Of a stretch of DNA of 64,000 nt, positions 709-50,600 are shown piece by piece. Position 1 is the first letter of the stretch; every line of letters starts with the position of its first letter. The notes below the pieces were generated by a model that did not search any database, was not told the origin of the DNA, and saw nothing but the letters and a program-made list of their open reading frames with translations. The translations under genes were made by a program, and so were the position numbers. Source of the stretch: Exaiptasia diaphana (taxonomy: Eukaryota > Cnidaria > Anthozoa > Actiniaria > Aiptasiidae); contig NW_018384495.1 of the NCBI RefSeq assembly GCF_001417965.1, positions 278,623-342,622 on the forward strand, read 5' to 3'.

Positions 709-1697
709 TTGAGAAGTTTGTAAAGGATGCATGAAGCCAGACAAGTCAGCCATATTGGCGGAAGTGCTGGACATGCATCACAACCAAGCCTTTTATGCAA
801 AGGCTGTTGTTTTGGTGGTGGATCATCATTATCATTTGATAGAAATTGATTATCTTTATCGTTTTGTTGGATTGGTAACAGATGTTGATTGATTGGTGGC
901 ACAAGAAATTCTGGCTGATGTTCATCATCATTTGTTGGAACCAAAGGTTTGCTGTTCTTTTTGGGCCAAGTCAGCAACACTGGTGGTATTGATGGCAGCT
1001 GACGCTCATCAGTATTTGATGGCAGTAAAGGTTTGTTTTCCTTCTCAGGCCAAGTCAGCATCAGTGTTGGGCTTGATGGAAGCTGTTCACCAGCATTTGA
1101 TGGCAGTAAAGGTTTCTTGTCCTTCTCAGGCCAAGTCAGCATCAATGATGGACTTGATAGAAGCTGTTCACCAGCATTTAATGGCAGCAAAGGCTTGTTT
1201 CCCTTCTCAGGCCAAGTCAGCATCAGTAATGGGCTTGGTGGAAGCTGTTCACCAGCATTTGATGGCAGCAAAGGCTTGTTTTCCTTCTCAGGCCCAGTCA
1301 GCATCAGTGTTGGGCTTGATGGAAGCTGTTCACCAGCATTTGATGGCAGTAAAGGTTTGCTGCTCTTCTCAGGCCCAGTCAGCATCAGTAATGGGCTTAA
1401 TGGAAGACATTCACCAGCATTTGATGGCAGCAAAGGTTTGTTTTCCTTCTCACGCCAAGTCAGCATCAGCGCTGGGCTTGATGGTTCACCAGCATTTGAT
1501 GGCAGTAAAGCATTGTCGCTGATATCTTCATCCCCAGTTAGCATCAATAGCTGTTGGGTTGATGAGAGTTGCCCATCAGTTGATGAAAACAGACGCAGAT
1601 CTGGTATATTATTTTTATGGCAGGGGAGGGGTGCTGGTCTCTCCCAAGGAGGGTTCAAGAAAAATGGTAGCCCACACCCCCTTGCATAGATTTCTTT
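709..1697 (-). CDS. Repeat-bearing coding exon with 27-residue tandem repeats
   Basis: This is a long open stretch ending in a good donor (CAA/GTAAGTC at 708). Its N-terminal part reads YARGCGLPFFLNPPWERP, followed by about seven to eight copies of a 27-residue unit. The unit has a hydrophobic LMLT core, then W or G, PEK, KPLLPSNAGEQLP and a Ser/Pro linker. The W/G choice at one position alternates between copies. After the repeats comes an Asn/Asp/Gln-rich tail ending LYKLLK. No known domain is recognised. The composition (Pro, Leu, Asn, Glu) suggests an extended low-complexity protein. The upstream acceptor is weak (ACTAG at 1698-1700), so the exon start is uncertain. The plus-strand ORFs over the same bases are explained by the repeat period, not by separate genes. 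Confidence 0.45.
914..1560. repeat. 81-bp coding minisatellite
   Basis: About seven to eight direct copies of an 81-bp unit are present. The landmark gttcaccagcatttgatggc recurs near 1085, 1166, 1247, 1328 and 1409, always 81 bp apart. It recurs once more near 1486 at a slightly shorter spacing, and there is a diverged copy near 1000. The period is a multiple of three, so the unit stays open in several frames on both strands at once. Copies differ mainly by single substitutions, so the array is fairly young. Confidence 0.9.
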
Positions 1698-27888: not shown

Positions 27889-29070
27889 TTTGTCGACACT
27901 TTTCTCTTGAAATAAGAACAATATCAGTTATTCAAATATAGGATATACAAAACGTAATAATTAGTTTTGGTCTAGTTTAATGCACAGCAGTCAACAGCCC
28001 TCGGATCCTTCATTGCATAAAGACATTGGTCTGATGAGGACTAGAGTTAGACAGTGGGATGCAGGCATTTTTTCAAAAAATATCCCGTAGTCCCGTTCAA
28101 CTCAAAACTATCCTAATTTATTGGACGTTAAATGTTAATAGATCTATCCGATATCCTACTTTTTTATATCCCGTATCCCTACATGTTTTTTCTTAAAATC
28201 TCATATCCGAAAACCCCTATCAGGGCCTCACTGATCATTGAATTCCCGCGGGCCGAAAAATCGTAAAGGACCCGTAAACGTCTTGGCATGTCACGCGCAC
28301 AATGTTCAAATGGATTTCCGAGAAGTCCCTCGACATTGGTGATCACTGATAGAAACCGTAAAATGTATACATTGGATCGTCAGTTTAAGTATTTCTTAAA
28401 TGACAATATAGTAGGAAATCTACCTCGAAACCTTTAAAACATTGCCAAATGCAGGAAATTAGAAAAATGAAACTGAACCTGGAAAGCCGTAGTCGATGAG
28501 TGGGCGTTGTTCACTGTAGTGATTATAACAACATGACTTCTTGGTTCTGCCGACAAATGGGCGTATTGACGGGACTAATCTTTGACCAGGAATGTTTCCC
28601 ACTATAGATTGTAAGAGCATCTCCGTTATGGTAACAAAATATCTACTATTCAAGCGAATGCCTGTTGCTTACCTTTAAGCTCAGTAGATCTCGGAAGGTG
28701 AAATGACGCTCCTTCAGAGTAATGTTAATACTTAACTTGCTTTTTCTGCAATATCATTGGCTGCCGCACTGACTTTGACAGGTCCAAAAATAGAATAATG
28801 CTCTTACAACGTGTTCCTTGAATTCTCAGAAATCCTTGTTTAGTTAGTGTCTCAGTTGTCACGCTCTCACAGGAGATTCCTGAGCCCCCAGTGATTTTGT
28901 TCAGAGACTGTTTAATGACTATTGATACTTACTATAAAGAGAGTTCTAGTTACAATTACAACTGAACTATGATGTAGTGAAAAAGACATCTTTACATTGT
29001 GAAATATTATGAAATCGAAAAAGTTGATTAATAACAATGAAACATCTATAAACAATGTATTCCCGTTTTC
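27889..29070. other. 5' leader intron of the GTPase gene and spacer to the torsin-like gene
   Basis: A strong minus-strand donor (TTAAAG/GTAAGC near 28676) fits a 5' untranslated exon spliced to the acceptor just before 27905. Repeated atatccc/atcccgta motifs occur around 28080-28200 and may be a degenerate dispersed repeat. No other gene was recognised. Confidence 0.4.
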
Positions 29071-30993
29071 TTAGCCCATTGCTACATCAACTTTAGATGA
29101 AACCTTTTTACAGCCTGACACAGAAAATAGTTCCAAATCCTCTGGGATGTAAGTCATTTCATTAGCTATTTCTGTGACCATTGTTTCAAGTTCAATAAAG
29201 CCTTTGGATTTCAAATCTTTTTTCACACACTGCTTGACATGTGACCTCTCTAGGGGTAGAAAAGGGACGAAATGGTCTATCACTTCAGATGCGATCAGTT
29301 CTTGATACCACGCTGTAGGATTTGCATCTGCATATGAATGAAGTAAATGCTCAAGCTGGACAAGTTCTATGTCCTCTCTTGCAAGACCTTTCTTGTAATA
29401 TTGGAGTACATAGTTATTGATTGATTTGCCACCAGTATTTGAAAGAAACAAGAATATGACATTTTGAAAATCAAGGTTATTCTTGGCTCCTTTTGGGTCA
29501 AGAAATGGCTTTAATACAGTTACAACACCAGGAGGGATTTTATCCATCTCATCAAAGATAAACAGACCACCTTTATTGCACTTTGTTATGTTACCAAGAA
29601 TCCAATCGTGTAGCTGCTGTCGATACAAACCCACCTCAGAAACATGTGGGAAGTGCAAAGGAATGATAAACTTATAAACAAACTTACTATCCAACCCTTG
29701 TTTGAAGATGTGTTTAGCAATAAGCCCAGTGACAAAGTTTTTGCCTGTCCCAGTCCAACCATGAAGTGAAAGAACAAGTGGTTTGTTTTTGTTAGTAAAC
29801 TGACTATGACTTTTCAAAGATGACAATAATACTCTCATTGCAAGATGCTGTCCATAAAACTCTTGATTGAGATCACTCTCCAATCCTGTCAGATTGTGTC
29901 TGAACTCACTATCTAAGCACAAACCATGAGGATTGACATGAAGGTAAATAGCAGCAACTGCAACAGATACGATGAACACAAAAATTGTAAACACTGATGA
30001 AAGGTTAATTGGTTTTTCAGGCCTCTTGTCATGTGAAGTGTCTGGATTTTTGTTACTTTTTTCACTGGTACTGTTTCTGACAGAACTATTAATTTTGTCA
30101 TCATTGTCCTCGTCATCACTAAATGATATAAACTTAGGGCTTTTACTTTGCTTTCTAGGCTTCCTTTGAGTGACATTGTCATGATTGACAAGAGCTCTTG
30201 GCAAGGGATTTTCATCATCTATCTCTATAACCTCAGTATCATCCATGTGAGAAGCTTCACCAATCCAGCTCATTCCACAGTCTTCTTTTTCTTCCTCAGC
30301 TTCAGTCGAATATAATTTGGGTAACTTGTAAGAAGTTTTAGATCTTTGTTTACTTGGGTTGAATGCTGTATTTGAATCATAAAGAACAATGCTTAGATCA
30401 GGCTTTATTTTTGTATTAAAATTAGTTATGTTTTTATTTGATTGACCAAGCCTTGGAAAATATCGATTTTCTGGAGATTTGTGAAGTGATTGAAGCAAGC
30501 CTTGTTGGCGATTGTCTTGAAAGCCATCACTCATTATTGCAGGAGATGAATTCTGTCTGATGGGACTGAAAATGTGTCTTTTATCAGTACATTTACTAGC
30601 TTCCTTAGCTCTTCTTATTTCTTCTGCTCTGGTATTTCTAGTCAAGTCAACATGTTTCAATCCCACAGATCTCACAGGTCGGCCAATAAGAAGTGACTTA
30701 TTAGAACAAGTGACTTCATTAGTGCGACTGATTTCTGGTACCATATTATTTGGAAACATCGGAGCATCTAAAGTGAAGGTTTTGTTTGCAACTGTACTGG
30801 CTGCATTGTCTAAATTACAATCTGTTTCCATGGCTACATGGTTCTCTTCGTCTGAATTCAAACTGTGGTCAGAATCATCACTATTTGGACTCCAATTATT
30901 TCTTGGTTCTCTAAACCAGCCTAATCTAGCAGGACTTGAGCTGATAGCCGAAAAAGAGCGCTGGAAACCAATCTTCTTGCTTCGTGAAGACAT
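29071..30993 (-). CDS. Torsin-family AAA+ ATPase with long N-terminal region and membrane anchor
   Basis: A single coding exon encodes 640 residues. The ATG at 30993 (MSSRSKKIGFQRSF) follows an acceptor (GACCGCAG), so a 5' untranslated exon exists upstream. Residues 1-330 are hydrophilic and Ser/Asp/Lys-rich. One transmembrane segment (about 336-357, SSVFTIFVFIVSVAVAAIYL) precedes the torsin ATPase domain. That domain has Walker A GWTGTGKN (about 411-418), the torsin variant ending in Asn, Walker B LFIFDEMDK near 478, and the C-terminal GCK motif of torsins near SVSGCKKV. Torsins act in the lumen of the endoplasmic reticulum and nuclear envelope, where LAP1/LULL1-type cofactors activate them. 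The single anchor predicts a cytosolic or nuclear tail and a lumenal ATPase. This resembles torsin-4A more than signal-peptide torsins, but the tail is much longer than I expect. Confidence 0.85.
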   Translation of the reverse strand: MSSRSKKIGFQRSFSAISSSPARLGWFREPRNNWSPNSDDSDHSLNSDEENHVAMETDCNLDNAASTVANKTFTLDAPMFPNNMVPEISRTNEVTCSNKSLLIGRPVRSVGLKHVDLTRNTRAEEIRRAKEASKCTDKRHIFSPIRQNSSPAIMSDGFQDNRQQGLLQSLHKSPENRYFPRLGQSNKNITNFNTKIKPDLSIVLYDSNTAFNPSKQRSKTSYKLPKLYSTEAEEEKEDCGMSWIGEASHMDDTEVIEIDDENPLPRALVNHDNVTQRKPRKQSKSPKFISFSDDEDNDDKINSSVRNSTSEKSNKNPDTSHDKRPEKPINLSSVFTIFVFIVSVAVAAIYLHVNPHGLCLDSEFRHNLTGLESDLNQEFYGQHLAMRVLLSSLKSHSQFTNKNKPLVLSLHGWTGTGKNFVTGLIAKHIFKQGLDSKFVYKFIIPLHFPHVSEVGLYRQQLHDWILGNITKCNKGGLFIFDEMDKIPPGVVTVLKPFLDPKGAKNNLDFQNVIFLFLSNTGGKSINNYVLQYYKKGLAREDIELVQLEHLLHSYADANPTAWYQELIASEVIDHFVPFLPLERSHVKQCVKKDLKSKGFIELETMVTEIANEMTYIPEDLELFSVSGCKKVSSKVDVAMG

Positions 30994-31364
30994 ATTCTCG
31001 ACAGCCAACTGCGGTCAAAAGTATTCAAAACCAAAGCAAAGCCATCTTTGTGAAGGCATAAATCTTAAGTACATATAATATATAATAAACAAGACAATCT
31101 TCAACCGTATATGGTGAATTTGGAACAGTCTACACTCGCAATAACTTGAAATAAGAAGTTGTAGTGAAGTTCCTCACTCCCGCCATATTTATATTAGTAC
31201 CCAGTCCCCCCTCACAAAATACAACAGGTAACCCAACTTACAGAAATGCAAAACTGATTTCTGTATAAAGACTATAAAGCCCTAGATGGGGATAACCAAG
31301 AGATAATCATTTACAAAACTAGTGTAAAAATAATTCAAACTACTGATTTATTTTCTATACATTC

Positions 31365-32075
31365 TCAATGTAGTACATGTAAAGGTTTTAAGCTTGTTAT
31401 AACATGATTAGGATCAACAACACTATTATCCTCGAGTGTAAAATTAAAGAATCTGTCTATAACATATGCTTTCATTCCTATAGCTTTAGCTGCATTATAG
31501 TCCTTAACTACACTATCACCAACATGCAATGCTTGATATGCCTTAACTTCACCATGCTGAAGTGCCAGCTGAAATATCTTTGGAGACGGTTTGGCGACCT
31601 TGACTTCAGTTGAGCACAGCACGAAAGAAAAGTATTTCAAAACGTCCAGTCCTTGTAGTATAGCAGGTAATCTTTCGTCAAAGTTAGACACAACACCTAA
31701 CTTGTAGCCTGTATTCTTCAAAAGATCTAAAACTGGATGGACATCATCAAACAATTGCCAGTTTTCAGGGAGTCTAAAGTCTTGATAAAGAGAAGAAGCA
31801 ATATTGGAGATTAAGTCATCATCTTCACAGCCAGAATTCTTAAATGTTGTGTGAACAATTTTGTGCCAAAAACATTGAGTGCTGATATTATTTTGAACCC
31901 CAAAGTTTGGATATTTTTTGTAGTAGTTTTTGTAGATTTTTTTGTATTGTGAATCCAGTAACATAGGATTTATGCAAAGGCCATGCTGCTTTGCAGTCTT
32001 GCTGTATATTTGTCCAACACTACCACGAACTGTTAGTAAGGTATTAAAGGCATCTAGAGTAATAAGACGAATCAT
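31365..32075 (-). CDS. HDHD3: HDHD3-like haloacid-dehalogenase-superfamily protein
   Basis: A single exon encodes 236 residues, with ATG at 32075 and stop at 31365. The layout matches human HDHD3 closely, including IRLITLDAFNTL at the N-terminus, AKQHGL, a helical cap, LGVVSNFDERL (motif II), KPSPKIFQLAL (motif III Lys) and HVGDSVVKDYNAA (motif IV). Motif I reads DAFNT, so the second Asp of the usual DxDxT is absent. Human HDHD3 also departs at this position (DVKDT). Classical phosphatase activity is therefore doubtful, and the substrate is unknown. It lies downstream of DPY30 and upstream of the torsin-like gene on the same strand. Confidence 0.88.
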   Translation of the reverse strand: MIRLITLDAFNTLLTVRGSVGQIYSKTAKQHGLCINPMLLDSQYKKIYKNYYKKYPNFGVQNNISTQCFWHKIVHTTFKNSGCEDDDLISNIASSLYQDFRLPENWQLFDDVHPVLDLLKNTGYKLGVVSNFDERLPAILQGLDVLKYFSFVLCSTEVKVAKPSPKIFQLALQHGEVKAYQALHVGDSVVKDYNAAKAIGMKAYVIDRFFNFTLEDNSVVDPNHVITSLKPLHVLH

Positions 32076-32209
32076 TGAACCCTGTTATCCTACTCAACTT
32101 TCTATCCAACTACTAGTAAAGTCCACCATTTTTGTCATAAAATACACAGGAAGCCCAGTATTGCTAAGCTCATGAAAAGCTTTTGGTATATGAGGACATA
32201 ACTGTATAC

Positions 32210-32506
32210 AGCTATTTCAAAAAACGTTGTCGGGGAGAACGACGAACGGCGATTGTCGAAGAGAGATTGCACGACTGAAAGGGACTATGGTTACACTGTT
32301 TTGATAAACAAAATTTCACTTATTGGATTCACCTTACATAAAAAAGGAGACTAAAGGATCCAGTGTTTACCACAGACCATCTTACAGTACAATCAGTTGT
32401 TATTGCCTTTCAACTAGCAAAAGACCCATGGCTACTTTCGTTCGTGCAATCGCCNTTAGACCATTGACATTCGCCATTTTATCCGACAACCTTTTTTGAA
32501 ATAGCT
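32210..32506. mobile_element. MITE-like element upstream of the HDHD3-like gene
   Basis: Terminal inverted repeats of about 25 bp (agctatttcaaaaaacgttg on the left, its complement with one or two mismatches on the right) bound about 297 bp with no ORF. Internal partly inverted stretches (gacgaacggcgattg and caatcgcc) extend the symmetry. A clear target duplication was not resolved. One base is ambiguous. Confidence 0.65.
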
Positions 32507-33200
32507 ATATTTTCTGAGCTTTATACAAATAAAGTCTCTTCATAAATCGTTAACTGAAATCTTGCCCAGAAAAACTTTTTTTCTGGTAGTATACAGTTTG
32601 GGCTTCCAGTGCTTAATTTTGACATGGATAATAACGTAACCCAACGTACTACTATGTCAGAACTCTTATAATTAGAAAGATTCAACTCCATGTTGAAATA
32701 ATATTTATTGTTAAGAAAATAGCAATTTCTGCCAAATGTAAGTACAATGTTGCTCAATTGCTTTAAACTAAATAAAGACACAAATGGTGTAAAAATAGAC
32801 AATAAATTAATACAACTAAGCAGTAAGAGCTGCTTATTTTGCCTATTTTCTTAGAAAGCCCTATTTTTTCTGAGATGGGAGGGATGTACTCAAAAGAGTA
32901 GAGCCATTAAAACTACTATTTTGAATAGCAGCAATTCCTCTGCACTTTTGTGGCAATGTACAAATGTACTATATCCCAGTGATGGGATTTTTTAGGTGTT
33001 TTGTGTCTTCAATTAATATTTTCTTCCAACAATGATTACTCTTTTGAAACAATGAAACCACTGAAAATAGCTTAAAATCTAGATCACATGCAGACCTTAA
33101 CCCCTAGATATAAAGCTTTTTATTACAAAGAATGCTTATCAGTTAGCAAAAGTTTTTTCTGTATATATTGCTCATATGTACATAGTGTTTATAGCCAGTA

Positions 33201-34898
33201 TTATGAACTCTCTTCAAATTGAGCCTTGTTCTTCAAAAGGTAGGTTGCCAAGTACTCAATTGCATTGGGAGGTCTGAAATAAAACAGTATAATAGACACT
33301 GAGTTATTTATATAAACCAGGCAATGCTTGGAATCTGCTGGAAGCATTATAAGCAATATCCCATGTGTCATGGTTTAGGAGTCCTGGATTAGGAATGATA
33401 TTCCTCAATCTTGCTTCTGGTATCAAGATGCAAGTAAGACACTTCTACTGTTTTGTATTGATGACCTTCATCTTGTCTGGTTGTCTTAATATGTCAGTAT
33501 TGACTATTCTTAAAATTCCAGGATAAACAGGAATATAGCCTCGTTTCAGGTATAGAAAACACAGGGAATAGCCAAAAAATGTAAACATAAATTTGAGACT
33601 AAGACTTCTTGCACTGGAATTTTAAGAATAGTCAATAACTGTCAAGGTTTTGAGATTTTGCTCTCTCGCTCCTGAGTGTTGCCATTCAAGCAAGACACTA
33701 CTTAGCTTTCATTACTGATGCTAGGCACAATCACAAATGCATTTTAAAAACTTCTAAACAGTCCCACTACCATAGAAACTGCAGTCACTTCTACAATAAT
33801 ATTGCTGTAATTAATATTATCAATACCTTTCTTTGGCTAAAGTTGCAAGTCCTTGCAGTAGGATTGGTACTACAGTCTGGTCAAGATATGCCCTTGTTGG
33901 TAATGACTGCAAATCAACTTTAGGTTTGGTTGGTTTATCAACTTCTTCCTTTTCTTTCTCAATTACTTTCTAGAAAGATGAGATATAAAGCAGAACCTCT
34001 ATTATAAACTATCACCTTGCAATATTATAATCATTTCTCTGCTATACCAAGCACAAAAGGCCTCCAAACCATCACTTCAAACCATTATATTTCTTGACAC
34101 CACCTTTCCATGAAATGGTCACCCTTGGAACATTCAATTATGGCTATCATCTGAACAAAGGTGTTATAGGGGGTAAATAACTGAATTGGGACTTTTTAGA
34201 TACCACTTTTTTTTTCCCAATAATATCAGCTGTTAGGAGAATCTTTGCCATATTCCACTCTGAATAGAGAACTTTAAAAAGTGAAAGTGTCACTCATTCT
34301 ATTCTCCTTCCATCACATCTTTCATACTCTCAACAATGAACACAACAATACCAAAGCAACGTTTAATACCATTGTTAATACAGTCCCAAAAAGCGAGAGA
34401 GTTTGTTCATCAATGTGAATTTGAATAGTAATTTCATTGTACCTGTAAACTGTCTGTTAATCCAATTTCAGCATGAGGGGATGTTTCCATTGCCTATAAA
34501 GTTGACCATTTACAAACAATAAACTTCATATACAAATATATCTATAGCTTACAGTTCCTGTATATTAAGTATTGAATTTATTGTTGTTCCAAACTCTTGA
34601 TCATGACGCTTGTGAATTGATTTAGAAAGTCAAAACTGTCGACACACAAATCACGAATTATGAAAATGACATAAAAAGCCTGTGTCCAATGTGACAGCTA
34701 CAATATTTTCAGTTGTTACCTCAGGTTTACTTTGGTTATTTTCCTCCGTTGTTGGAGCTTGGGAAACCTGTTCAGGAACACCTAAAGTAAAATATACCAT
34801 TATACAAACAAACCAAAATTTCTAGACGTATCAAAAGGGTAGAGATGCCACTTTGTTTATCAGTTCATTGGACTTCACTTACTTTCTGAGTCCGCCAT
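33201..34898 (-). CDS. DPY30: DPY30, core subunit of SET1/MLL histone methyltransferase complexes
   Basis: Five exons (34883-34898, 34720-34781, 34443-34493, 33827-33969, 33201-33273) join in frame to 114 residues. The first exon encodes only MADSE plus one base. The N-terminal half is variable and acidic. The C-terminal Dpy-30 motif reads [20 protein letters not shown], then [20 protein letters not shown] and [14 protein letters not shown], nearly identical to the vertebrate protein. It forms the helical dimerisation and docking module that binds ASH2L and supports H3K4 methylation in the nucleus. The small exons make it easy to miss by ORF length. It is divergent from the SNX gene, with about 470 bp between the start codons. 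Confidence 0.95.
33492..33643. mobile_element. Small foldback element in a DPY30 intron
   Basis: A perfect 20-bp inverted repeat (TGACTATTCTTAAAATTCCA at 33501-33520 and its complement at 33615-33634) is extended outward by cagt/actg with one base of offset. It spans about 150 bp and has no coding content. It lies in the last intron of DPY30. Confidence 0.7.
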
Positions 34899-34964
34899 GT
34901 TTTTTGTTCTTTCTTTGGTTACCAAGCAAGAGAGCGCACTGCTCTATGGGTAATATTATGTTCT

Positions 34965-34999
34965 TTTGTTTTTGGCGCGAACGAGGCGCGAACCTAAAG
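34965..34999. promoter_or_regulatory. E2F-like sites in the DPY30/SNX divergent promoter
   Basis: The sequence tttttggcgcgaacgaggcg, continuing into gcgaa, holds one good match to the E2F consensus TTTSGCGC and a nearby second GCGCGAA. It lies 75-100 bases upstream of the DPY30 ATG. Such sites are common in promoters of growth- and chromatin-related genes. Binding is inferred from sequence only. Confidence 0.4.
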
Positions 35000-35368
35000 C
35001 TTATGAGCTTTGATACTTATTACGATGTTAATATTATAGTAACCTATTCCAAATTTCTTCAACACATTTATACTTTAAGCTATTTATTGCTATAAATTTA
35101 AAAATGGTTTCAATAATAAATAATTGAAAATAAAAGCGAAAGGTAATGAGAAAAAGAATGAGAATGCCAGTTTCTTTTCTCTATCACTTTTCTCTTTTCA
35201 TCTATTCGAAATCTCTTAAATCATGTGAAAAGTTTTTTTTTTAAATCTTATTTTAAAATAGGTTGATATATACTCTTATAGGGGGTAGGGTACGTCGTCA
35301 TAAATCATCCACTAGTCGTCACGTGATGCGAGCTAAGAGTGTAGAGTGCACGGTACGTGTGGACAACC

Positions 35369-38285
35369 ATGATGGTAAGTTTCGGCCTCTAACGATCCTA
35401 AAATACTACAATACACCAGAATATTACTTGAATAACCGAGATATATGTTAATTCATTGTAGGACGCAACGGATAGTCAAGATATGCTGGATGATGAGAAG
35501 GTAAAATACACAAATTGTGTCATTGAATTCGGTGTCTGTCAGTGAGATTGTTGGAGTACCTCTACTCTATCTTTACTTGTTTTCCTTTTACTTTCATAGC
35601 CACGAACATCTACCGTCGACCTTTCCACAGATTCTACGCTTGTAGTTGATATTTCAGATGCTCTTAGTGAGAGGGATCGTGTTAAATTCACTGTACATAC
35701 GAAGGTTTGTGCAAGGAGGGGAAGAATACTGTCATATGTACCTTACGTGTATAAAGCTGAAGCAACCCTCAGTAAGCTTAGGTCTTTTTTTGTAGACTAC
35801 TCTACCTGATTTCAAAGAGAGTGAGTTCAGCGTTGTAAGAGAGCACGAAGAATTTGTCTGGCTGCACGATCGCCTTGTGGATAATGATGAATATGCGGGC
35901 ATAATTGTGAGTACACGACATAGAATTGATTATAAAAGGCTGGTTCAAGAAATTTATTTACAAAAAGTCATTAGATTAACAGCTTGTAGAAAATGTAGTT
36001 CATCATTATTATTTGTTTTGCCATTAAACACTACATGTTTAGTCCTCTCTTTATGACTTGCTTGTCTTTCTTTTTAAAAATATTCAAAAATAATTTGTTC
36101 CCTGCTTTTCGTTTCCTGTTTTAGATCCCACCAGCACCACCCAAGCCAGATTTTGATGTTTCTCGTGAAAAACTTCAGAAGTTAGGAGAAGGTGAGATAT
36201 TGTTACTGCTGTTGCTACAGCTGTTAGTTATAACTTTATTGCTAAAATGTGGTAATCATCTTCAATTATCATATTTTAGGTGAAAACACCATGACGAAAG
36301 AAGAATTCCAGAAAATGAAGCAGGAACTTGAGGCGTAAGTATTAAGCTTTTGATCTTTGCAGTATAATGTAATAAAATATTTCCTGGAAATAATAAGAAA
36401 AGTAAATATTTATTTAATTCTAAAATAATATTATTTTAACTTATAGTGAGTACCTAGCAACATTCAAGAAGACTGTTGCCATGCATGAAGTTTTTCTAAC
36501 CCGAATTGCTTCACATCCAAGTTTGAGAAAAGACAGTAATTTCAAAGTGTTCCTTGAGTATAAAGGAGAGGTATACCTTGAAAATATAACCTGGTATATG
36601 ATACATCAAGAGGGGAAATCATTAATGAAGATAATTATAACTCTATTAAATCTCATTGAGTTTCTTTTGTACTATTATATGACTAATGAAGATTATTGCC
36701 TTTTGTAGTTGAATGTACGTGGTAAGAACAAGAAAGAAAAGTTGGGTGGACTTTTTAAAGGTTTGGCTAAAGGTGTTGATGAAGCACTACTGTCAAGTCA
36801 AAAGGTAATTTGCTGTTAAATGCTATTTTAAAATGGTACTGAGGCGCATCCATGGTATTGTTGTATGTTATATTTATAACTCCATAATTTTATTTGCAGG
36901 ATGTTGATGAATTTTTTGAAAGTGAAAAGAAATTTCTTGTTGAATACCACAACAAGTAAGAAGTCATATTGGCTTTATTACACATTTATTGTGATTGAAC
37001 CCTCACCATTTGTATTCATAAATCCCTTTAAAGATATATTTATTATACATGTAGTAGTATTTACCAATACAGATACCTAGAGTGGTTTGCATCTTTGGTA
37101 ATAATCCATGGATTCAGTGTTTGACAGTTTCTTATAGTCATTTCCATCAAAAGAAAAGTCTACTAATCTCTCTTAGACGGGTAACTGAATCACAGTGAAA
37201 GTCATTCACAATGATTAATGTTGAGATGAATGCAACACTATCTGGTATCATATTTGAGATCCTTATTCCCCTGTACATTGCATACATTACAAGTTGTTGT
37301 TGTTGGGTGTGTATCTGGTCTAAACTTTAGATTCTCTTTCTTCAAGACTAAAAGACTCTACACGTAAAGGAGATCACATGACAAGATGCCACAAGAATTG
37401 TGCCGACACATTCATAAAGATTTCTTCTGGTGTAGCGGCTATGGGAACCAGTGAATATGCAGGTCTTGATAAGTTCTTAAACAAGTCAGGAGACTACTTT
37501 GAAAGAGCTCGTAAACTGGAAGGAAGAGTTGCCTCTGATGAGGATTTAAAGCTTGTTGATTTGCTTCGCTATTACCTGAGAGACACAGAAGCCGCTAAAG
37601 ACCTTCTCTATCGCCGTGCAAAGTGCTTGTCTGAGTTTGAGGCTGCAAACAAGGCCTTGGATAAAGCAAGGGTCAAGAACAAGGAAGTTGCTGCAGTAAG
37701 TGTAGATAAAGCTCATTCTTTAATTGTCGTTTGTAGTATTATTTCTTAGTGGGATAAATTCAGCTTTTTGCAACATAGATATTTAGAATTGCAGCACATT
37801 TTATTATAGCATGACTCAAAAAGTATTTCCTATTCAAATGTAGGCTGAGAGTGCTCAACAACATGCTAGTGAAAAATTTGAACAAATGTCAGAAGTAGCA
37901 CGCCAAGAACTAACAGACTTCAAAACAAGAAGAGTCCAACATTTTAGAAAGAATCTGGTGAGAAATGTTGTCAAAACCAACTCAATTTGTCCATCTTTTT
38001 GTTTCCTTCTAATGTTTATTTTATATTTATTGTTCAAATGGTGTTGTTTTGATGTTGATTATTCTATCTTGTATTTCAGACTGAACTAGCAGAGTTAGAA
38101 TTAAAGCATGCAAAAGTAAGTAGTTTTACAAATATGTGCATTGGATTTTGTAGTGAAAACTGTGTGCTGCATCTCCAGACTTCTAAGAACGGTGGCTATA
38201 CATGTGCAAATTTGAATCTAATTTCTCTTTTTAGGCACATAGTCAACTGCTAAAGAACACACTGGCAGCACTAAAAGAATTGTAG
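35369..38285 (+). CDS. Sorting nexin of the SNX5/SNX6/SNX32 group
   Basis: Thirteen exons join to 402 residues: 35369-35374, 35462-35500, 35600-35704, 35796-35906, 36125-36191, 36280-36334, 36447-36570, 36709-36804, 36900-36955, 37347-37695, 37844-37957, 38080-38115 and 38235-38285. Human SNX6 has 406. The first coding exon is just ATGATG. The PX domain covers about residues 20-160 ([21 protein letters not shown] onward), with the extended helical insertion typical of SNX5/6 ([20 protein letters not shown]). The BAR domain fills the C-terminal half and ends [21 protein letters not shown]. These proteins pair with SNX1/2 to form the tubulating part of ESCPE-1/retromer on endosomes. The divergent neighbour is DPY30. 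Confidence 0.95.
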
Positions 38286-39486
38286 TTACACCAAATATTG
38301 TAATCATTATGAAATACAAACCATTATGTTAACATTAAACGGAAATCTTGCTCTAAAAGTACCAGTAAATAGCCTTTAAAACGTCTTCTAAGTTCAGTGT
38401 TTACAATGAGCACATATCCTCTCTTAATTTTTGGACTTCAAAAGCATTAATGCTGTTGCAAAATAACTACCAACAAACATTTTTGCTTCTACCATCAAAA
38501 ATAACCATGTCTCAAAAACAAGGTATTTTTCACTTATTGTAATACATATACTGGACCGCATTTTTTATGATTTTTTTTCTGCCAAACATCTTACAATGTT
38601 TTAGTAAGTTACTTGATTTTCAAAAGAATTTTCGTGGGTATCCTGTGATTGTGTACATCTAGCGTACATTTTATGTAGTTTTGACATTGCGACTCATTTT
38701 AGTCTGTTATAAGTTAATAATTTGTCAATTGATCACCTTAAATGAAAATAAATGTATAGTAAAATAGGAATGCATAATAAAGATCTATAAGTTTGGATAC
38801 ATGGGGTTTTTGTTGCTCTTTAGTTCTGTTGCAAATATTCAACTGAAGGGAACTGTTGACACCATGTCTTGTGAGCTTCACAAGTTTTTCAAAATACTAT
38901 GCCTAAACCATGGGTTCAAGTCCCAGGCTTGAAAGGCTGTATCCCAAATTGGTGGGTTTCTACCATTTGGCAATTTCACATCGCACAAGTAATAGAAGAC
39001 AAGTAATGTATAAATTTTTTTTGGATGCGCGCTAAAAATTGGAGTCAATAAAAAAGAATTGCTCTCAAACGTAGCTGCTGTTGCGCACCGAAGTGGGCCG
39101 GAAGTGACGAAGTTACTGGAAGTCAATCGACTTCCGTGTCAATCTGCCAGACACATTGTTGACAAAACCGCAGGATCATCGGTAATTCCTTGAAGCAAAT
39201 CGTGCTTTATTTAATACTATTTACAACTTTAGATGGGGATGGTTACAAAATATTTTTCAGTTCTTAACATCAATATTCGCCTTTATTGAAAATAAAAGTT
39301 TCTCTTTCCCTTTCCGTGTACAACAATTGTACTGGTTGTCAACGTTAACAAAATCTACGTCACGAAAAGTTTTAATAATGTACACAGTCTTTCTTCCTAG
39401 TAAACATTGAAATGAATACAAAGGATTTGAGTTAATTTAAAGCTTGCCGTTAGGGAACTGTCATGCTTAAGAAGTTTTGAAGCCTG
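38286..39486. other. Convergent 3' spacer
   Basis: This lies between the SNX gene (plus) and the DUF1444-like gene (minus). Possible SNX polyadenylation signals (aataaa) occur near 38747 and 38776. No convincing exon was seen. Confidence 0.5.
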
Positions 39487-40548
39487 TTACTTTTGTCTCT
39501 TCAGCTTCAGTGGCTTAAGTCTTAGTCTGATTTTCCTCACTTCATCAAGACTTTGTGGAACATTCTGTTCCTGAGCGTATATTTTGGGTGCGTATTCGTG
39601 GAATCTATTTTTGGAAAAGCGAAGTGGTTTGATGTCAAAATGTTGTGGATCCTTGGAAAACTGAAGAGCTATTTCTCCAATTATACACAATTGTGTATCA
39701 CTCTTGGCTCCTCCGACCAGGCAAATATCTCCAGATGGAGCAACAACAACAGGATCACCATCCTCGATTTCCAGACCGTCAAGAAATTGTGGCAGTAGGA
39801 TGACAGATGCTGATACCGAGCCAAGGTTGTCCAAGTAGTACACACCAGCTTTGCTTCGCTTCCACAGTCGAGTTCCCCGGTTCTCCAGTCGATGCTCTAA
39901 GTTTCTGATGGCCACGTCTTTCAGCACTTTCTCAGAGATATTCCAAGCCTCAAGATAGCTGCGTAGAATGTACTGCAAAGATCCTTCTTCATTGACGATA
40001 GCCAAGGTGTATCCTAGAGAGGTCATTGGCAGTGTCATCACGGGAAAGAACAGTAGCTCGGGTGTCTTCTTGGGGTCGATCTTCTTCAACATATCTTTGG
40101 TTGACGCTTCCCAGCTCTTGGGCTTCAGGACGGGAAGAATTCGTGGTCTGGCAACTGCGAAGTCTGGGATTTTCTCCAGATCGATATTGATTCTGGTGGA
40201 TTTGAGCATACGTTGCTGGGAAATCGCATCTGTTGCTGTAGCGGTGTTGCTTTTGGATGTTGTTGTAGCAATTGGTGCAGAAGATGTCTTGGATGCTGCC
40301 TTTGTTGCAGTTCCCTTGAGCTCCACACTTCGTTTGTCAATACTCGTTTTACTTGTGCTACTCTTTGAAGTTGTTTTCACCTCTTTCTTCTTGCCAGCTG
40401 CTTCATGACCAGGTTTGTTCAAGCCCTTCAAATTGACCCCGAAAACGTTGGCAATGTTTTGCTTTGGATCCTGTTTATCAGAAGACAAACTTTTCGTTTT
40501 AAAAGAAGACGACGACGTCCTGAAAGAAGAGCTGCTGTATCGTGACAT
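39487..40548 (-). CDS. DUF1444 (YtpQ/UPF0354)-like protein with Ser/Thr/Lys-rich N-terminus
   Basis: A single exon encodes 353 residues; the first true ATG is at 40548 (MSRYSSSSFRTSSSS). Residues 1-120 are low complexity (Ser, Thr, Lys, Ala). The C-terminal 210 residues have the order of features I associate with bacterial DUF1444 proteins. These are a FFPVM segment, LGYTLAIVNEEGSLQYILRS, an AWNISEKVLKDVAIRNLEHRL helix, VYYLDNLGSVSASVILLPQF, and GDPVVVAPSGDICLVGGA, then a helix and a DIKPLRFSKN strand. The family's function is unknown. No well-known human counterpart comes to mind. The absence of introns among intron-rich neighbours could mean retroposition or old transfer. The family call is by pattern memory and needs a profile search. 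Confidence 0.6.
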   Translation of the reverse strand: MSRYSSSSFRTSSSSFKTKSLSSDKQDPKQNIANVFGVNLKGLNKPGHEAAGKKKEVKTTSKSSTSKTSIDKRSVELKGTATKAASKTSSAPIATTTSKSNTATATDAISQQRMLKSTRINIDLEKIPDFAVARPRILPVLKPKSWEASTKDMLKKIDPKKTPELLFFPVMTLPMTSLGYTLAIVNEEGSLQYILRSYLEAWNISEKVLKDVAIRNLEHRLENRGTRLWKRSKAGVYYLDNLGSVSASVILLPQFLDGLEIEDGDPVVVAPSGDICLVGGAKSDTQLCIIGEIALQFSKDPQHFDIKPLRFSKNRFHEYAPKIYAQEQNVPQSLDEVRKIRLRLKPLKLKRQK

Positions 40549-41608
40549 GACGCGTTTATTCAAACTCAAAGTTGTATCAACTTTCCAGAAATTCGTATTC
40601 GCTGTTAGGATGAATGATCACTACACACCAAAGCTGCTACGTCCGTCAATATTTCTGTAAGACTGAGACGACAGCACCACAACTTCAACATACAACACAG
40701 CTGACGAATTCGACGGGACAGTGCAGTATTCAAAATACGATCTGTTCTGCTCTGTCAAACCTTTTGTATCAAATAGCTAGAATATTTTAGGTCGGTTCGA
40801 TCTACAAACAAGGACCGGGATATATTACAGTGACCTAGATTGGATTACGCTTGATGGGATGTTGACTGATCGCTTGTAAAATTCTGGACATGTTAGGAAT
40901 GACATATTGATATTTATCTTGATTGAATCTTTTGTGTCGATAAGTGAATGTTATTTAGTGTTTATTGCTTATTGTTCAATCCGATCACATTAAATCCACA
41001 CAAAAACAACCTTTATGCATGCTTGATTACAGATTATAATATCTCTCACCCTAATCATTCCCATACATCCTGCTCGGCACAAACTACGCTACAAGATCAG
41101 ATTCTGGATTTTCAACCAATCTATATCTGCTCTTATGCAATCTTCACAATAACCCACAATTATAGTTATATCTTTGAAAATTTGATGAATTTTACCGCCT
41201 GAGTCAATGATATCAAATTCTCAAAAACGTATGACCAGAAACTGTCCAAATTCATCGATACAATGATGACGTTTACTGTCTGAAAGGCTGACGGTAAATA
41301 ATGACCCCCAATCCAACCTTTCATCCATATATACTAACATATCTGATGCGTCTATTTTTAAACACTGCAAACTGTCAAACTTACTGAAAAGTAAAATGTG
41401 AAATGAAATGAGATGGGAAAATATGAGCGCAAGTTTCCATCGATTCTATTTTGCATAAAAAAACTTGTGAGGACAAGCAAAAACACCAAATAATCGAGCA
41501 GTTATTATTTCATTTATTATCTTCAAAGAGCAGAAAGACTTATAAACTATTTACACGAGGAACTTGAACTTTTTTCACCTTAAAATACTGATAAGAACCC
41601 ATGAAGGT
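40549..41608. other. Spacer between the DUF1444-like gene and the symplekin 3' end
   Basis: This is the promoter region of the DUF1444-like gene plus AT-rich spacer. No convincing exon was seen. The plus strand reads tttatt near 41513, giving a minus-strand AATAAA suited to symplekin polyadenylation. Confidence 0.45.
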
Positions 41609-44600
41609 CTATTTTACGTGCAGGGTATCTGATTCAGTGTCTTCAATCTCTCCTTCACTTTCACTCCCTTCTTCTGTGTGCTCTCTTTTGGAATGTGGAG
41701 ACCCGGATCGAGATCTGCGAGATCTTTTACGATCCTTGCGCCTTTCCTTCGAGCTCGATCGGGATCTCTTTGGTGAAGACGGGATTTCTTCGGTTTTTGA
41801 TTCAGTCTCTTGTTTTGGGTCAACTTGCTCCTTATCAGCTTGATCTGTTTCAGTTTTCTTTTCTTTGTCCAGAATTTGAAGGACTGAACGTGGAATATGC
41901 GCACGCTGAGAATACAATGATAGTTTTTTTTTTTAAATCATCCCTTGTCGCCGTGAAGACGAATTTTTAGCCTGCTAAGAAAAGATTTTATCTAATACCT
42001 GATGTGGAGTGAAAGACTGGACGTGATTGACAACATTATCACGAAGTTCAGGGCATATCTAAACAAGAAAACCATAGTGTTGAATACAATGGCAGTTCTT
42101 TAATCAATAGCCGACTTAAGATATTTTGGTTCAGTGACCATGCACAAAAGAATTGCAGACGAGGCTCCGGGGAAATAATGAATAAATCAAGATTATCCAT
42201 TGATAATTTTATTTTTTTTAATATTGCAAAGAGTTATTTTGAAGTGCACGCTTCAAAATGACCAATCAAAGAGCGTATAATATCGTTTTATTCTTTATTT
42301 CCCCGGAGCCTCGTCTGCAATTCTTTTGTGCATGGTCACTGAACCAAAATATCTAAAGTCGGCTATTAATATTCAATCAATCGTGTATATGAAAAGAGAT
42401 CAATAAACATTATTGTCACCAAAGCTATCGCTATCATCATATCACGATTCTTGAAAGAATCTCATCTTTACAAGTTACAACATAATTATCAATGTTATCA
42501 TTGTTGTTGCTCAATCAACCTCCCCCAAATCATCACAATCATGATTCCTGTCATTATCATCAAGATAATCATCATCATTACACAGCTTATCCATCAACAT
42601 TGCATAAAATAGATCACCTCGAAAGCACTTTCAAGTTGTCGCGGTGGAAGCTGAAGTAAAACTGAGAAAGACTGCGGTTTGGTCATCTGAAAAGGCATAA
42701 AAAACACGCATAAAACATCTATTTGTCTATAATGAATAAACCACATGATCTCTTCATACCTGACAGCATTTGACGAAACCTTGCCAGACTTTAGGCTGCT
42801 TCCACACCTGTTTTAAAAGACAAAAATGATCAGAAATGCCCTGCAGTGAGCCTTGAATGGGTTTTCATCTTTTCTACAGCTAATTAACGGCAAAAAGGAA
42901 CAGCAACACAAGTAGATTTTTGTACGCCAATAGTAAATTGTACCTGCTTTGTGATGAGCTTTGATAACAAACTCATGACGAATCCGATAAGTCTTGGGCA
43001 AATACTAAGCGACTGGATTACCTGTGTAATATACAACATGAATGTGACAAACAGAAGTAAACGAAGAAAATGGGAGGAGTAGGTGAGTGAGTGAGTGAAA
43101 TAATGAACATTTCGTACCGTTCTCATGAACAATGTTGGGAGAGGATTGATTTCCATCAGCTGCTGAAGGACGATAGCCAGTACTTCTTGTGTATAAATAG
43201 TTTTCTCGTCAAAACAGAACCTGATGGCTGAGTAAAGTTGCAAAAACGTTAAACAAACAAATAAGAACAAAAATGGAGAGCACAGTAATTGGAAACCTTC
43301 AATCGCAAGGACACAAAAATGGACAAATTACACAAATTTTGGTCGACTTTTGGTCAAAACAATAAAATAACTAAATTAGATGTAAAATTATTGAATCAAA
43401 TAAATGAAGAATACTGCGGGGAGAGTAAATACTGCAAAAAATTATCTAAAAACATAGTAGAGTAAATAATAAGATTCATTTAATTTGAACACAACAGCAA
43501 ACAAAAAACAGAACCTACCCTTCATAACAGAACGTATGTCTCCTTTAGACTCAAGAGTGTTGGCTTTCTTTGAAGGTTCAATCATATGGAGAGCAACTAA
43601 CAGTTCTGATGGACTAAGAGGACTGGTGCCTGACACTTTTCCCTCACCTACAGACACAACGACTTTGAATTAAGACCAACAATATGCTCTGATTTATTAT
43701 CACAAAATGGCCATCTTTCCTGACGATCATTGTCATCATATTGAACTTCAATCATCATCAGCATCAACATGCATCATCAGTTTGCATTTTCTCACTAAAG
43801 AGTTAACGTTAATTCAACTTTGCCGGCGTGATTCGTTATCTCAAGCTATCTCATAATTAGCTCCCATTTATCGACATCACGTCACCACCATCACAGTCAT
43901 CATCATCATCATCCAAGTCAAAATTATCATTAACACAGCCCACTTATTACACTCAACCTCATCTTACTCATCATCATTATCTTACTCATCCTCATCCTCA
44001 TCATCACCATCATCATCCTTCCGCTTTAAATCTGTTTTATCATGAAAGTTGTCACTTACTATGAAAACATCCCAACAGTCTATTAAACACTTCTTTCACG
44101 ACGCTTGGTGATTGTTTTATGAGTTTAGGCAATACAGCAATGATTTCCTGTTTTTCAAGTCCTGTCAGTACAGGGATCAGGAATCGTACATCGGCAACGC
44201 GCTTATGATAAAGATCTTTAACTCGTTTGACGAGATCAGGTGATGGAGCAGCTGGGGACGGAGATAAAATTTTAGAAAAATTGAGTTAAAGGATGGATGA
44301 GAAATGGCATCAATTGACAACTATGTTGTCCAGTCAGAGAAAATTGAATGATAAAACAGTACAAAATATTGGCATTTCACACGAACAAGCATTGGTGGTG
44401 CATTAATGAATGAAGTACAAGAAAACCCTCAGACATACATGTACTATAACCTACATGTACTATAACCTACCTTTATCTGTGATAATGTTTAATATTCTGG
44501 CGATAAGTGTTTCAGATCCAGTAGGACAGCTCTCTACCAACTGCAGTAACTCAGGAGAAGCCATTCCAATAGCACGGACCTGTCAATCAAACAAAAGGTG

Positions 44601-47600
44601 ATTTCTGTTTTCTACAGATTTGGAAGGCATAGATATCCTTCACAGAGGGCTTGTACTGCCATCCAATGGCAAAGCGATCTAATCATTATTTGTTTGTTTA
44701 TTTTGAAGATTTACTTACTGGTGTTTCAAGATGGCGAAGTATGATTCTTTTAATCATTTGAGATGACGCAGTATAGATAATTGCCAACCTTTTAATATTT
44801 CATATAAGATTTCATCAGTTTGTCATGATTCGTGCAAATATAATAGCAATAAACATATAAAATGGCTCACAAAGGAGCAAATAAAGATTAATATTGGATA
44901 CTTACTGATGAAATAGTTTGTGATTTTGAGGTAATAATGCTAGATATAAATATAAACAAGTTTTTATGCTTTCATCTGTCCACTCTGCATGGAGAGAAGA
45001 TAAAAGAAACGTTGTCAATCAGAATGATAAACTTGAACACAAATAAAAAGTTAGGTTATGCCAAACACAAGCTTTATACAACAAAGAGTGATTTTATAAA
45101 ATGAAAAGTTAGTACCCTTTGGTTCTTCATCTGGCTCTGAAGGTTGCTTTTCTTGTATTAGTAATTCCAATGAGGACAATGCAAATGTCTGAAGACAAAC
45201 AAAAAAAAACCTAAATAATTATCTGACAGAAGTCATGTTGACAGAAGTCTTGCTTAATTACAAAACTCCTAAAAACTCCTACATTTTCTTTCAACATCAA
45301 TAATATTTCTTCCACAGATTTTGATTCTCGTGATCTTATTTTAATAATATTTTCTTCCCCATATCCTACCTCAATATCCAGAGCAAGATCAGGTCGAGTA
45401 TGTAGCTTTTTAGCAGAGTGGATGGCCTGCACACGGACCTGTTCCTTCTCGTTAGTAGTCAGCTCAAGTAATGTTTGTAAGTGTTCATGTTGGGAAGCTG
45501 GTCGCTTGAGGATTAAATCTCTTAATGTTGCAAAACCAACATGGAGGGTTTCCTACAAAAACAAAGTAAAAATAAAACAAACTTATGAATATCTTAAAGC
45601 ATAGTTTGGAACTCAGTGTGCTAGTATGTCGTATGTTTAAAAATCAGGACAAGGTCGAAGAATACTTACTATATTTTCACAATGTAGCTTTACCATTTCC
45701 ATAACTCTTTCAGTGACAAGGGGAGCCTCAAGGACAACACGTGTAAACAACCTGAAATACAAACAAAACCTGTTAATAAATGGCTGTTCTCTTCAGCTTG
45801 GAATTTTGGGAAGAACACAGGGAGACCAAGACACCAAATTCTTACTTGTCCTTTGGATCCATGCGGTGTTGCAATCCTTCTAATATTGTACACAAGCAGT
45901 GGTCATATGACATCATATCTACTGGAAAACCTTCCTCCATCTTAACCTCCTGCATCAAATACTCCTGATACAGCCATGTGTGTATCAAGTCATAGTGGGC
46001 TCTGGGGTCTTCTTGGATATAATTGTGAAGTTCTGCACAATAGAAATTGTCATGATAATGAGCTTTTTTAATGCCAAAAAGAGGCAGGTATTACAAGAAA
46101 CGATGTTGCACGACAAAAAGGAAGGGCACTAACAAACATAGCATGCCAAAACACACAAACATACAACCTTTTCCATACAACACAAATAAGCAAGAATCTA
46201 AATGAGAATCAGCAAGTTTATCATTGACCAGTCAGCAATCTGAATTTTATATTTTGAATTGTACCTTGTCTAGCAGGGTCTTCACACTGAATGGCCAATC
46301 CAACAAGAAGTTTAATTCTTTCCTGACATGGGAAAAAACACATTCCAATATTATTAGCAATGGTCTTTACAGTAAGCATAGTTGTTGCCATATTTCTAAG
46401 TAAGTAAAGTGACCACATACCTGAGTAACTCCACTCCTAGTTGCACTGTCTACAAAATGCAAAGTACGTTGCTAAGAAATCTCAATCAGATTGAATTCAT
46501 AACTTAAATGAGAGGACTTACTTTCAGCTTTGATAATCCTATCAATGGTGCTCATAAGCATGTTCTGTTGTTCTGTGTGATTCATGTCTTTTGTGACCTC
46601 GGCTAATTTAAAGGCTTTAATCCTACGCATTCGCTGGAAATAACAAGATTTATTTGCTAAAGTCAAACACTTTGTTTTGAAACAGCCATGTTTCACTTTT
46701 TTCCTTGACATGTTATCCATCTTAAACAACGACATCACAGTTCAAAACGAAAAACACTGTTTATGGATCAATAAATAAACAACTTACCAAAGGAGGGATT
46801 GGAGCTTCTTTATGTTGAAAAGTCTGAAAAAAATAAAGAAACCAGTTCATGTTTTGTTGTTATTTGAGCTTTATTCAATAAATCACTCTTACTTTTTTGC
46901 CTTCTGGTTTTACTTTGTCTTTTGAAACATCAATTTGTCCACCTAAAATATGAGAAAGTTAATAACATTGATAGGATGAATCGATGGACAAAAGTTTGAT
47001 GGACAGACAGACTGACAAATATGTACATGGATGTGGCTGCCTAGATACAACAAGAAATTAAAACTGTGGATTCATTCTAAAATACTCACTCAGGATTCTT
47101 TGTAATGCTGAATCTTTTTTCTCCTTAAATACAATGGAAATATTTCTTAATTCACACAAAAACAATCAAGTTTTATTTGAGAGTATTTATCTCACCCCTG
47201 AAAACTCTGCATCGGCATCAGCAGACCAACTTGAACCAATCACAGGAATAGACTGGTTGGATTCATTTTGACCTTTTAACCGTACACGGGGGTCTTGTGC
47301 CTGTCAAACATAAGGCAAAGAATGTTATTTATGGTGTCATATCTAGGGGAGGAGTTTTGGGGTTTGCAACTCCTCTATAAAAGTAAGTTTGATATTTCAC
47401 CTCCAATTTATGCACAATTTAAACATTAAATATACTTACAATGTGCATCACCACTGAGAGATCTACCTCCTAAATAGTACTACGTCCTCAATGAAAAAGC
47501 TCGCCATGAGACTTTCACCTTACCTTCTTGAGTGCATCCATTCTTTCAAAGCCAACACCAACACCAGCAGCAGTCATTTGAGATGCAAGCAGTCTTGCTA

Positions 47601-50600
47601 AGTGAGCTACCTGAGCTTGGCCACCAGCAGCAGCAATAGGAGTGTATGTATCGCTAAAGTTTGTTGGGATATGATCAGGAAGTGACAGCATGCTTATCAG
47701 AACAAGATTGGTGACATTATCTTTGTCAAGTAAAGGAATGAGGTCTTGTGCAGTCACGTCAATCGCCTCTGCCGTAGACATTGATATCACGTCTGGATCA
47801 TCAGCCTTTCAAAATAAACAGTACAACAATAAGAATGAGAATAAGAAAAGATAAACATTGAAAAGAAGATGGAAAAAAGGGAAATAAATGAGAATGTTGT
47901 GAGAAAATTGAATAGAAAAATTTGAAGAAAGATGTCAAAAAAGTAGCTACCGGAGAAGGAAAAACTGAGGAGATGATGGAAATGAGAAAGGAAAGTAAAA
48001 AAACAGCAGAAAGAAACAGAAAGGATGTGAGAATGAATAAGACAAAATAAAGATTGATTTACATCAGTCAACTTGGATTTCTTGTTCCCTGATGAAGCTT
48101 CATTTTCTGCCCTAAAAGACATGATAACATAATCATGTCAAAACCAAGCTACTGGAAAAGTTATCTATAAGTTGTCAAGCTAAACGTTTTAAGCAAATAC
48201 AGAACTGTAATGGCAGGAACCATGTAACCCTACCTCCTTTTCATTGACTCTGAAGTAGTTTTAGGCATGTTTTTTTGGAGCTATTTATAATAAGCAAGGA
48301 AAAAGTTAATAATATTGTGAATTTAATTTTGTAGATTATTTTATTTTGTTTACCTCTGTCTGTGAAGCTCCAAGGTCAGTTAGCAAGGTGGTAATTTGAG
48401 GAAGAAATTCAACTAGTGTGTGAAAGAAAAATCAATAACCAACACATACTATTAAAATATTAATATGATAAATAATGATAATTGAAAATTTTAACCAAAC
48501 TCATCCTGAAGGCAACGTCATGACCAATAATTCAAACTTTAGTGTGAGGAGGAGAATATTGAAGGGTGGAGAGAAATATTGAACACCACTAGAATGAATG
48601 ATTTGTTTTTTTTTTGTTTTTTTTTTGCAAGATATATAATGAATTCCACGAGTACTCACTTGAACATGGATGTCTTAAAAGATTCATTAGATGTAGCTGA
48701 AAATAAAAGAATGATCCATTGCAAATTTGATTGACTCAAAACAACAATAGACTGTTTTTTCCTAACAAAGTTCATCAAAATCTTACCTTAAGGTTTTTCC
48801 TGACACTACTAACTTGTGATTTTGACAATGAAGTAGGGAGATTTGCTAAGAAAAAAAAAAACAGATTTGTTATTCAATCTGCTAACCTGCCTCAGAAAAT
48901 GAAATGGCAAATGGACACAAAACTGGAAATGAGAGTAGCAGCGCATATGAAGATGAATTTCTTTTCAACAACACTAATAATTTTGATGATGAAACACTCA
49001 AGATTAAACTAGTAGCTAGTCAACTTATCACTTAATAATCAGCTTACTTTGTGTTTTGATAATAACAATATTATTACTAGTTTACTTACCATGTAATGAT
49101 TCAAAAGTTTGTACAACAGTTGACATAAAAATTGGACGCTGTCGAGCAATATTTGATAGAGTACCCAAACATGCCATTAAGTTTACACTGAAATACAATA
49201 GCAATTTTAATTAATGAAGAATAAATATCATTAGAGCATTTTGAAAAGAGCAATGATTGTGTTTAGTGACACAACTTGTCTTTTTAAAAAATGTTTGTAC
49301 AATACTGCATCACTGTTTACTTGTTGCTCTAGAGATTGCAGGCTCTGGACTTCAATATAAATGTACAGAATATATACATAACTTTACCTTGATATTGTTG
49401 GTGATGCTATCAAAGTCAGCAAAGCTTCTAGTGTTGTACCACCTTCTTCTCTTAGCTCTGCCATTCTGACAAGAGGATGGTTTCGTGGAATGACATCAAG
49501 AGAAATGTCTGTTTCACCTTTCTTTGTAGACTCAGAATCCTAACAATATCAAAATGGTTTAATATAATCACACTTTTACATCACTTTACAAAATATTAAA
49601 ACCATAAAAAGTTGTTATAGGAAGCATTAGGGACCGGTGGACGTGTGGATGTGATTTTTTCCCTTTTTTTCAATTTCTATATGCAACCTATCTTTTCTAC
49701 TCCCTTCCTTTCAGTATTCCTTTCTCTCTATCCCTCCAACCCTCTTCAAAACATTTCTAGCTAGTTTGATTGCATACTTGTGTTTTGTTAGACTGAACAA
49801 GAACAAGCATCTCCATAAACTTTATGGCATGTGTTCGAATTCTGCAACACAAAATGGCACATTCATCAGCAAAGTTTTAAGAGCCACTTCGCGCAAAAAT
49901 CAGACATATCTTGGCAAGGCTCGAAAAATCAAATCTATTCATATTTTGTATATTTATAAGGTATGATTAGGTAACAATCGCTGTGTAATTGGTTTTTGAA
50001 AATATTTCATTTTTCGCAAGAAAATCGCTAAACAATGTCACATACTGGGCCTATGCGTGACAAATGTTTGATGGCTAAAAATAGCACTCGAAATAGCCAA
50101 ACTTTCTACCGAGCTTGTGTGAAATGNAAAATAGTAATTTCAAAAATTTAAATTGTGGCTTTNTAAGTAACTCTTTCTTATTTATTTCGTTGATTTTCAG
50201 AGCATTTAATTAAAAAGAAAATTTTCTAGAACTCTAAGTGTTTGCATATGTAGTNGTATATGCAAATTAGCACCTAGAAAAAAAGATTATTTTTTCTATG
50301 TGCAAGTATTTTGTTTGNAATGAAATTCGGCGTGATAACTAAGCAAGGCATGAGCTTTACAAANAAATAATAATAAGTCTGGGCAAATCACTTTCAGGTG
50401 CGTAGGAATGACTTATTCCAGTCAAAATTATCAGCGTAAACACATGTTTTGTCAGTTGTATTAACCCAACAATTTTCAAAGGATATAAACACCTAATCAA
50501 CATTAAACGTATGTTATTGAAAGAAAAAGGGTTAAGCATATTTTCTTTGAACATTTTAGGCAATGTAAATGAATTTCGGTTGTNTAAAACATTTGGTGTT

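Follow-up and report, generated by a model that had tools for sequence, protein, structure and literature searches.

An animal protein related to the bacterial DUF1444 (YtpQ/CgoN) superfamily

A single-exon gene in animal DNA encodes a 353-residue protein of the DUF1444 superfamily (39487..40548, minus strand, of the window, that is, of the whole 64-kb stretch of DNA analysed). It is nearly certain that residues ~127-321 of this protein share ancestry with the central and C-terminal domains found in bacterial members of that superfamily. The family has so far been described from bacteria only, and what is new is a wide bacterial superfamily around CgoN together with one animal member.

Relationship to bacterial DUF1444 proteins

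Key evidence for the relationship comes from profile comparisons. In a Pfam search PF07285 was the top match (E=0.0056, 16.7 bits; residues 129-299 on profile positions 79-234), but its gathering cut-off of 23.8 bits was reached neither by the full-length protein nor by the domain alone (17.7 bits). The YtpQ equivalog model of NCBIfam, PRK13668, matched at E=7e-4, and hhalign aligned residues 134-311 of the animal protein to a two-sequence YtpQ profile (E=5.5e-5) and the protein to a two-sequence Variovorax/Burkholderia profile (E=1.5e-9, probability 96%). An HMM of 27 bacterial sequences scored the animal protein at 64.2 bits (E=1.2e-17 at Z=20000), whereas the highest score among 20,000 shuffled versions of the animal domain was 7.6 bits; there is a mild circularity in that nine of the 27 sequences were chosen using a profile that contained the animal row. 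A 17-sequence Burkholderiales HMM, all but one of whose members were found without the animal row, gave 44 bits (E=1.4e-11) as against 6.6 bits for the best of 20,000 shuffles; the founding sequence of this set is the best plasmid match of the animal protein, which cannot explain 44 bits. A two-sequence YtpQ HMM did not separate the animal protein (8.1 bits) from shuffles (13.1 bits). The tie to YtpQ proper is carried by the curated Pfam and NCBIfam models, by hhalign and by intermediate sequences.

Such intermediates were found among bacteria. A tblastn search of plasmids returned one weak match, a Variovorax hypothetical protein (E=0.1), which belongs to a coherent Burkholderiales family from 14 genomes (33% to a Burkholderia protein, E=3e-45). 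The intermediate type L024 directly matches both the Variovorax protein (7e-7) and Listeria YtpQ (1e-4), and thus the Burkholderiales family and YtpQ are themselves related. The best direct single-sequence match of the animal protein was to L051, from a Burkholderiales genome (E=2.6e-7, 29% over residues 128-283, 33 bits). The YtpQ starter query was approximate and was used only to locate database records (70% to an Anoxybacillus DUF1444 protein), and these records were used in everything that followed. Pattern scans with the animal protein in the viral collection and in 85k prokaryote genomes found no relative, and neither a PHROGs search nor a search of viral contigs with two bacterial alignments gave a match.

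YtpQ (CgoN, UPF0354; PF07285, Bacillota) and the animal protein are alike in segment order, in the fold of the central and C-terminal domains and in a common run of motifs, I-x-P-V-[IL]-[KR], A-x-x-N-[LV], A-S-x-x-[IL]-L and G-x-x-[VM]-[VL]-[VA]-x-P-x-x-D. Unlike YtpQ, the animal protein, besides its host and its score below the Pfam cut-off, has no N-terminal domain, has lost a near-invariant Asp and a Tyr-Asp pair, and carries an added 118-residue basic low-complexity extension. Profile similarity is highest to the Burkholderiales DUF1444-like proteins (Variovorax P0002, Caenimonas L005, Pandoraea L007, Burkholderia L016; the hhalign value of 1.5e-9), which share with the animal protein the ARPR[IL]LP[VI]L start and a GDPV-x-x-AP segment and are its nearest rows in trees, but which possess the N-domain plus a further domain of ~130 aa at the C-terminus and retain GDYYDA-R and APNR. 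The short or lipoprotein-like relatives from Pseudomonadota (L051, L035, L032, L043) show likeness in ILPVIKTRMWLTAAT versus ILPVLKPKSWEAST, whereas several of them have a signal-like start, and the Asp is retained in them, as for the most part is P-A-R-[DEN]. The animal protein is closer to the soluble Burkholderiales types than to Bacillus YtpQ.

The sequence-only reading had held that the C-terminal ~210 residues follow the segment order of YtpQ, which is borne out for ~195-210 residues by PF07285, PRK13668, hhalign and the 27-sequence HMM. The profile check that it proposed succeeded with the YtpQ model and fell short with PF07285. The relationship to DUF1444 (YtpQ) stands by profiles and, separately, by fold; the family name is slightly too narrow. 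Its likeness to Bacillus YtpQ also stands as a relationship, although the nearest bacterial relatives found are DUF1444-like proteins of Burkholderiales.

Among the Pseudomonadota genomes sampled for breadth, superfamily members were found in 9 of 398 across the phylum, 9 of 385 in one class and 8 of 369 in another, a sparse but wide distribution (~2%). The bacterial superfamily of which DUF1444/YtpQ forms a single branch is large and for the most part unannotated (L022-L051 are examples), and its architectures include secreted, N-domain-less and C-terminally extended forms. Many of the wider-family relatives have signal-like N-termini, and some of ~200 aa have no N-domain (L026, L027). DUF5688 (PF18941) weakly matches 5 of 14 members (best E=4e-4) and may belong to the superfamily too. 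The order thioredoxin-ytpQ-ytpR is conserved in Anoxybacillus (L003, plasmid) and Listeria (L004), and an IscB gene lies directly upstream of the plasmid copy in Anoxybacillus.

Domain architecture and predicted fold

The DUF1444-like module (residues 127-321; 39586..40170, minus strand) corresponds to the central and C-terminal domains of YtpQ, as judged by profiles and by a model with a fold match. It is preceded by an extension (residues 1-118; 40195..40548, minus strand) that gave no YtpQ N-domain match and that had been called Ser/Thr/Lys-rich, a description confirmed by its composition (25 S, 18 K and 16 T; 22 K/R versus 7 D/E). A basic tail with the LRLKPLKLKRQK end follows (residues 322-353; 39490..39585, minus strand), which is not alignable to the bacterial rows. 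Two side matches, Pfam T2SSC (E=0.037, residues 11-116) and NCBIfam GltC, fall in the low-complexity N-terminus and were attributed to composition.

The YtpQ N-domain is missing from the animal ORF. In YtpQ this domain spans residues 1-78, and its proposed role is closure of the ligand site (PMC10965808). The first matched profile position in the animal protein is 79-86 (Pfam, NCBIfam), and thus the match begins where the N-domain ends; none of the other ORFs of at least 20 aa in the window matches the profiles. This reading applies to the ORF as read, an upstream exon being strictly possible.

Three columns, Asp, Asn and Pro, are invariant over 13 bacterial rows from seven subfamilies. The animal protein keeps the latter two (Asn216, Pro271) and has Asn186 in place of the Asp, which is likewise absent from the bacterial relative L046. 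Gly273 occupies a position that is Arg in six of the seven bacterial subfamilies, YtpQ having Gln there, and Val-Ser (245-246) stands where most bacterial rows have an aromatic residue and an acid (Tyr/Phe-Asp/Glu pair). Ala213 and the A-S-x-x-L-L segment are also kept. A catalytic part for the conserved Asp and Arg is at most putative in the bacterial members.

Residues 115-353 were modelled from an alignment limited to the animal and Burkholderiales rows, with no YtpQ sequence. The model was of middling confidence (pLDDT 61, pTM 0.57), a 5-column gap misplaced in its alignment just before the Asp having probably lowered the pLDDT. Its only significant match in the viral library BFVD was A0A2H4PQY3 (139 aa, E=1.9e-4, probability 1.00). 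In the record of Staphylococcus phage UPMK_1, MG543995, the C-terminal half of YtpQ is annotated as an ORF of 139 aa; A0A2H4PQY3, equated with it by length and kind, is almost certainly a piece of YtpQ from a staphylococcus. Neither the animal model nor that of the Caenimonas protein had a significant fold match in the PDB, and the CgoN authors likewise reported none (PMC10965808); searching the PDB by sequence with the animal protein and profiles gave no match. The structure comparison suggested from the sequence thus found a probable YtpQ fragment in BFVD and nothing significant in the PDB. Helices and strands follow one another in the Caenimonas model (pLDDT 68.5) as they do in the animal model over the common region, which is weak support because the two models share alignment rows. 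A PDB match to apolipoprotein A-II (E=0.04) fell outside the animal domain and was set aside as chance. Phage records that carry ytpQ are few (MG543995.1, OR844993.1, OR847356.1 and related ones), some being contigs of 3.4 kb, and probably represent host DNA filed as phage.

Genomic setting and origin

The ORF runs from an ATG at 40548 to a TAA at 39487-39489 (353 codons), without an internal stop or ambiguous base, and its frame is the best of six by the codon usage of the neighbour genes. An AATAAA polyadenylation-type signal, a consensus match, lies ~200 bases past the stop codon (39282..39287, minus strand). The gene runs convergently to a sorting nexin 5/6-like gene (exon at 37324..37746, plus strand; E=3e-34 to a sorting nexin-5 chain), and a symplekin exon lies upstream on the same strand as the gene (45214..45552, minus strand; E=4e-8 to a symplekin chain); the stretch that spans all three (32456-50126) contains no ambiguous bases. 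Other neighbours in the window include a Roc-COR kinase with LRRs, a torsin and an AMP-binding enzyme. In light of these animal-type families, it was concluded that the locus is part of an animal nuclear genome; a gene neighbourhood test for CgoN (ytpP/ytpR or heme genes) found animal neighbours only.

The gene had been described as single-exon among intron-rich neighbours. It is indeed a single exon, but the neighbours are not all intron-rich, since the torsin-like (29074-31014, minus strand), HAD (31368-32084) and AIG1-like (26248-27927) genes are also long uninterrupted ORFs. Because several neighbours look single-exon too, intronlessness is a weak argument for transfer.

Several other features of the window were recorded. 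The torsin AAA domain at 29074-31014 is part of a 647-codon single-exon frame with an N-terminal extension of ~360 residues, a length unusual for a torsin; the extension holds a hydrophobic membrane-like segment, and a LAP1-like fusion is possible. Within a 330-codon ORF (708-1697, minus strand), positions 919-1510 comprise 7.3 copies of an 81-base unit that encodes 27-residue repeats of the type SPLLMLTGPEKENKPLLPSNAGEQLP. Just downstream of the animal gene, the region 38881-39138 contains an exact tRNA B-box-like GGGTTCAAGTCCC at 38912 and might be a tRNA-derived SINE remnant; ARAGORN and Rfam call nothing there. A putative Gag-like retroelement fragment (15071-15502, minus strand), read by eye alone, adjoins a chitin-deacetylase-like gene.

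The gene is old, to judge from its sequence divergence (at most 29% identity found), its long branch and its native codon use. Trees place the animal row beside a Burkholderiales group (support 91/86 then 88/86), but this position was not used as donor evidence because the animal branch is long. Recent horizontal transfer from a bacterium, or contamination by one, would agree with the single exon and the bacterial family, but the best identity found is 29%, the pattern scan of 85k prokaryote genomes gave no relative, the synonymous codon bias of the gene (0.045) falls within the range of its neighbours (0.023-0.155), and the gene is contiguous with those for sorting nexin and symplekin; such an event is highly improbable, and divergence and codon usage rule it out within the sampling used. 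An accidental alignment of a lineage-specific protein, to which the sub-threshold Pfam score might point, is scarcely conceivable given 64 bits to a bacterial-only profile versus 7.6 for the best shuffle, the hhalign result and a separate fold match. Of the two origins offered by the sequence-only reading, an old bacterial acquisition and a little-noticed eukaryotic branch, the prokaryote-only collections searched favour neither. Vertical inheritance, broad in animals or eukaryotes and possibly from the mitochondrial ancestor, is a serious possibility that we nonetheless lean against: the divergence is as deep as that between bacterial subfamilies, codon use is native, and a score below the Pfam cut-off explains why no domain name was attached, but the literature found naming DUF1444, UPF0354 or PF07285 concerns bacteria, and the tree does not firmly group the animal row with any lineage.

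Function and significance

In Priestia megaterium, CgoN uses FAD for the six-electron oxidation of coproporphyrinogen III; the proposed ligand site is a cleft that separates its N-domain from the remaining two domains (PMC10965808). With the N-domain and the most conserved charged residues absent, this reaction is unlikely in the animal protein, although the existence of N-domain-less bacterial relatives implies that absence of the domain need not mean loss of activity. The preferred explanation, which as a whole we hold with about even confidence, is that the gene would have entered, or been already in, the animal lineage long ago and been reshaped since. Its product would have dropped the FAD-dependent coproporphyrinogen oxidation and would be a compact folded binding module, a role assigned by elimination, wherein flexible basic N- and C-terminal arms would tether the module to a partner (protein, nucleic acid or membrane).

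The main functional alternative is a working CgoN-like flavoenzyme, directed to mitochondria by its Ser/Arg-rich start (MSRYSSSSFRTSSSSFKTKS) and using FAD to oxidise a porphyrinogen or other reduced substrate. Membership of the superfamily of CgoN, an FAD-using coproporphyrinogen III oxidase (PMC10965808), is in keeping with such an enzyme, as are the first 25 residues (5 K/R, 1 D/E), with a mildly amphipathic stretch of maximum hydrophobic moment 0.45. That moment is modest, however, and the N-domain, the near-invariant Asp and the conserved Arg are gone; furthermore, the signal-like starts of many wider-family bacterial relatives indicate that heme synthesis is probably a specialisation of the Bacillota branch. 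Animals also possess their own CPOX and PPOX. A flavoenzyme of this kind is thus unlikely. A further reading, in which the protein stands for a eukaryotic branch of the YtpQ/CgoN fold not described before, serving animals in a role of its own that may be mitochondrial and tied to flavin or porphyrin, is rather improbable.

The CgoN family has been described as almost exclusively confined to Bacillaceae and without significant homology to other protein classes (PMC10965808). With the wider superfamily and its animal member, the residues and domains of YtpQ become comparable across very distant relatives, and natural variants that lack the N-domain or the Asp and Arg allow testing of the parts that CgoN activity needs. 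The animal protein, which we prefer to read as an old, reshaped binding module, provides a named target for asking how animals use a bacterial-type domain.
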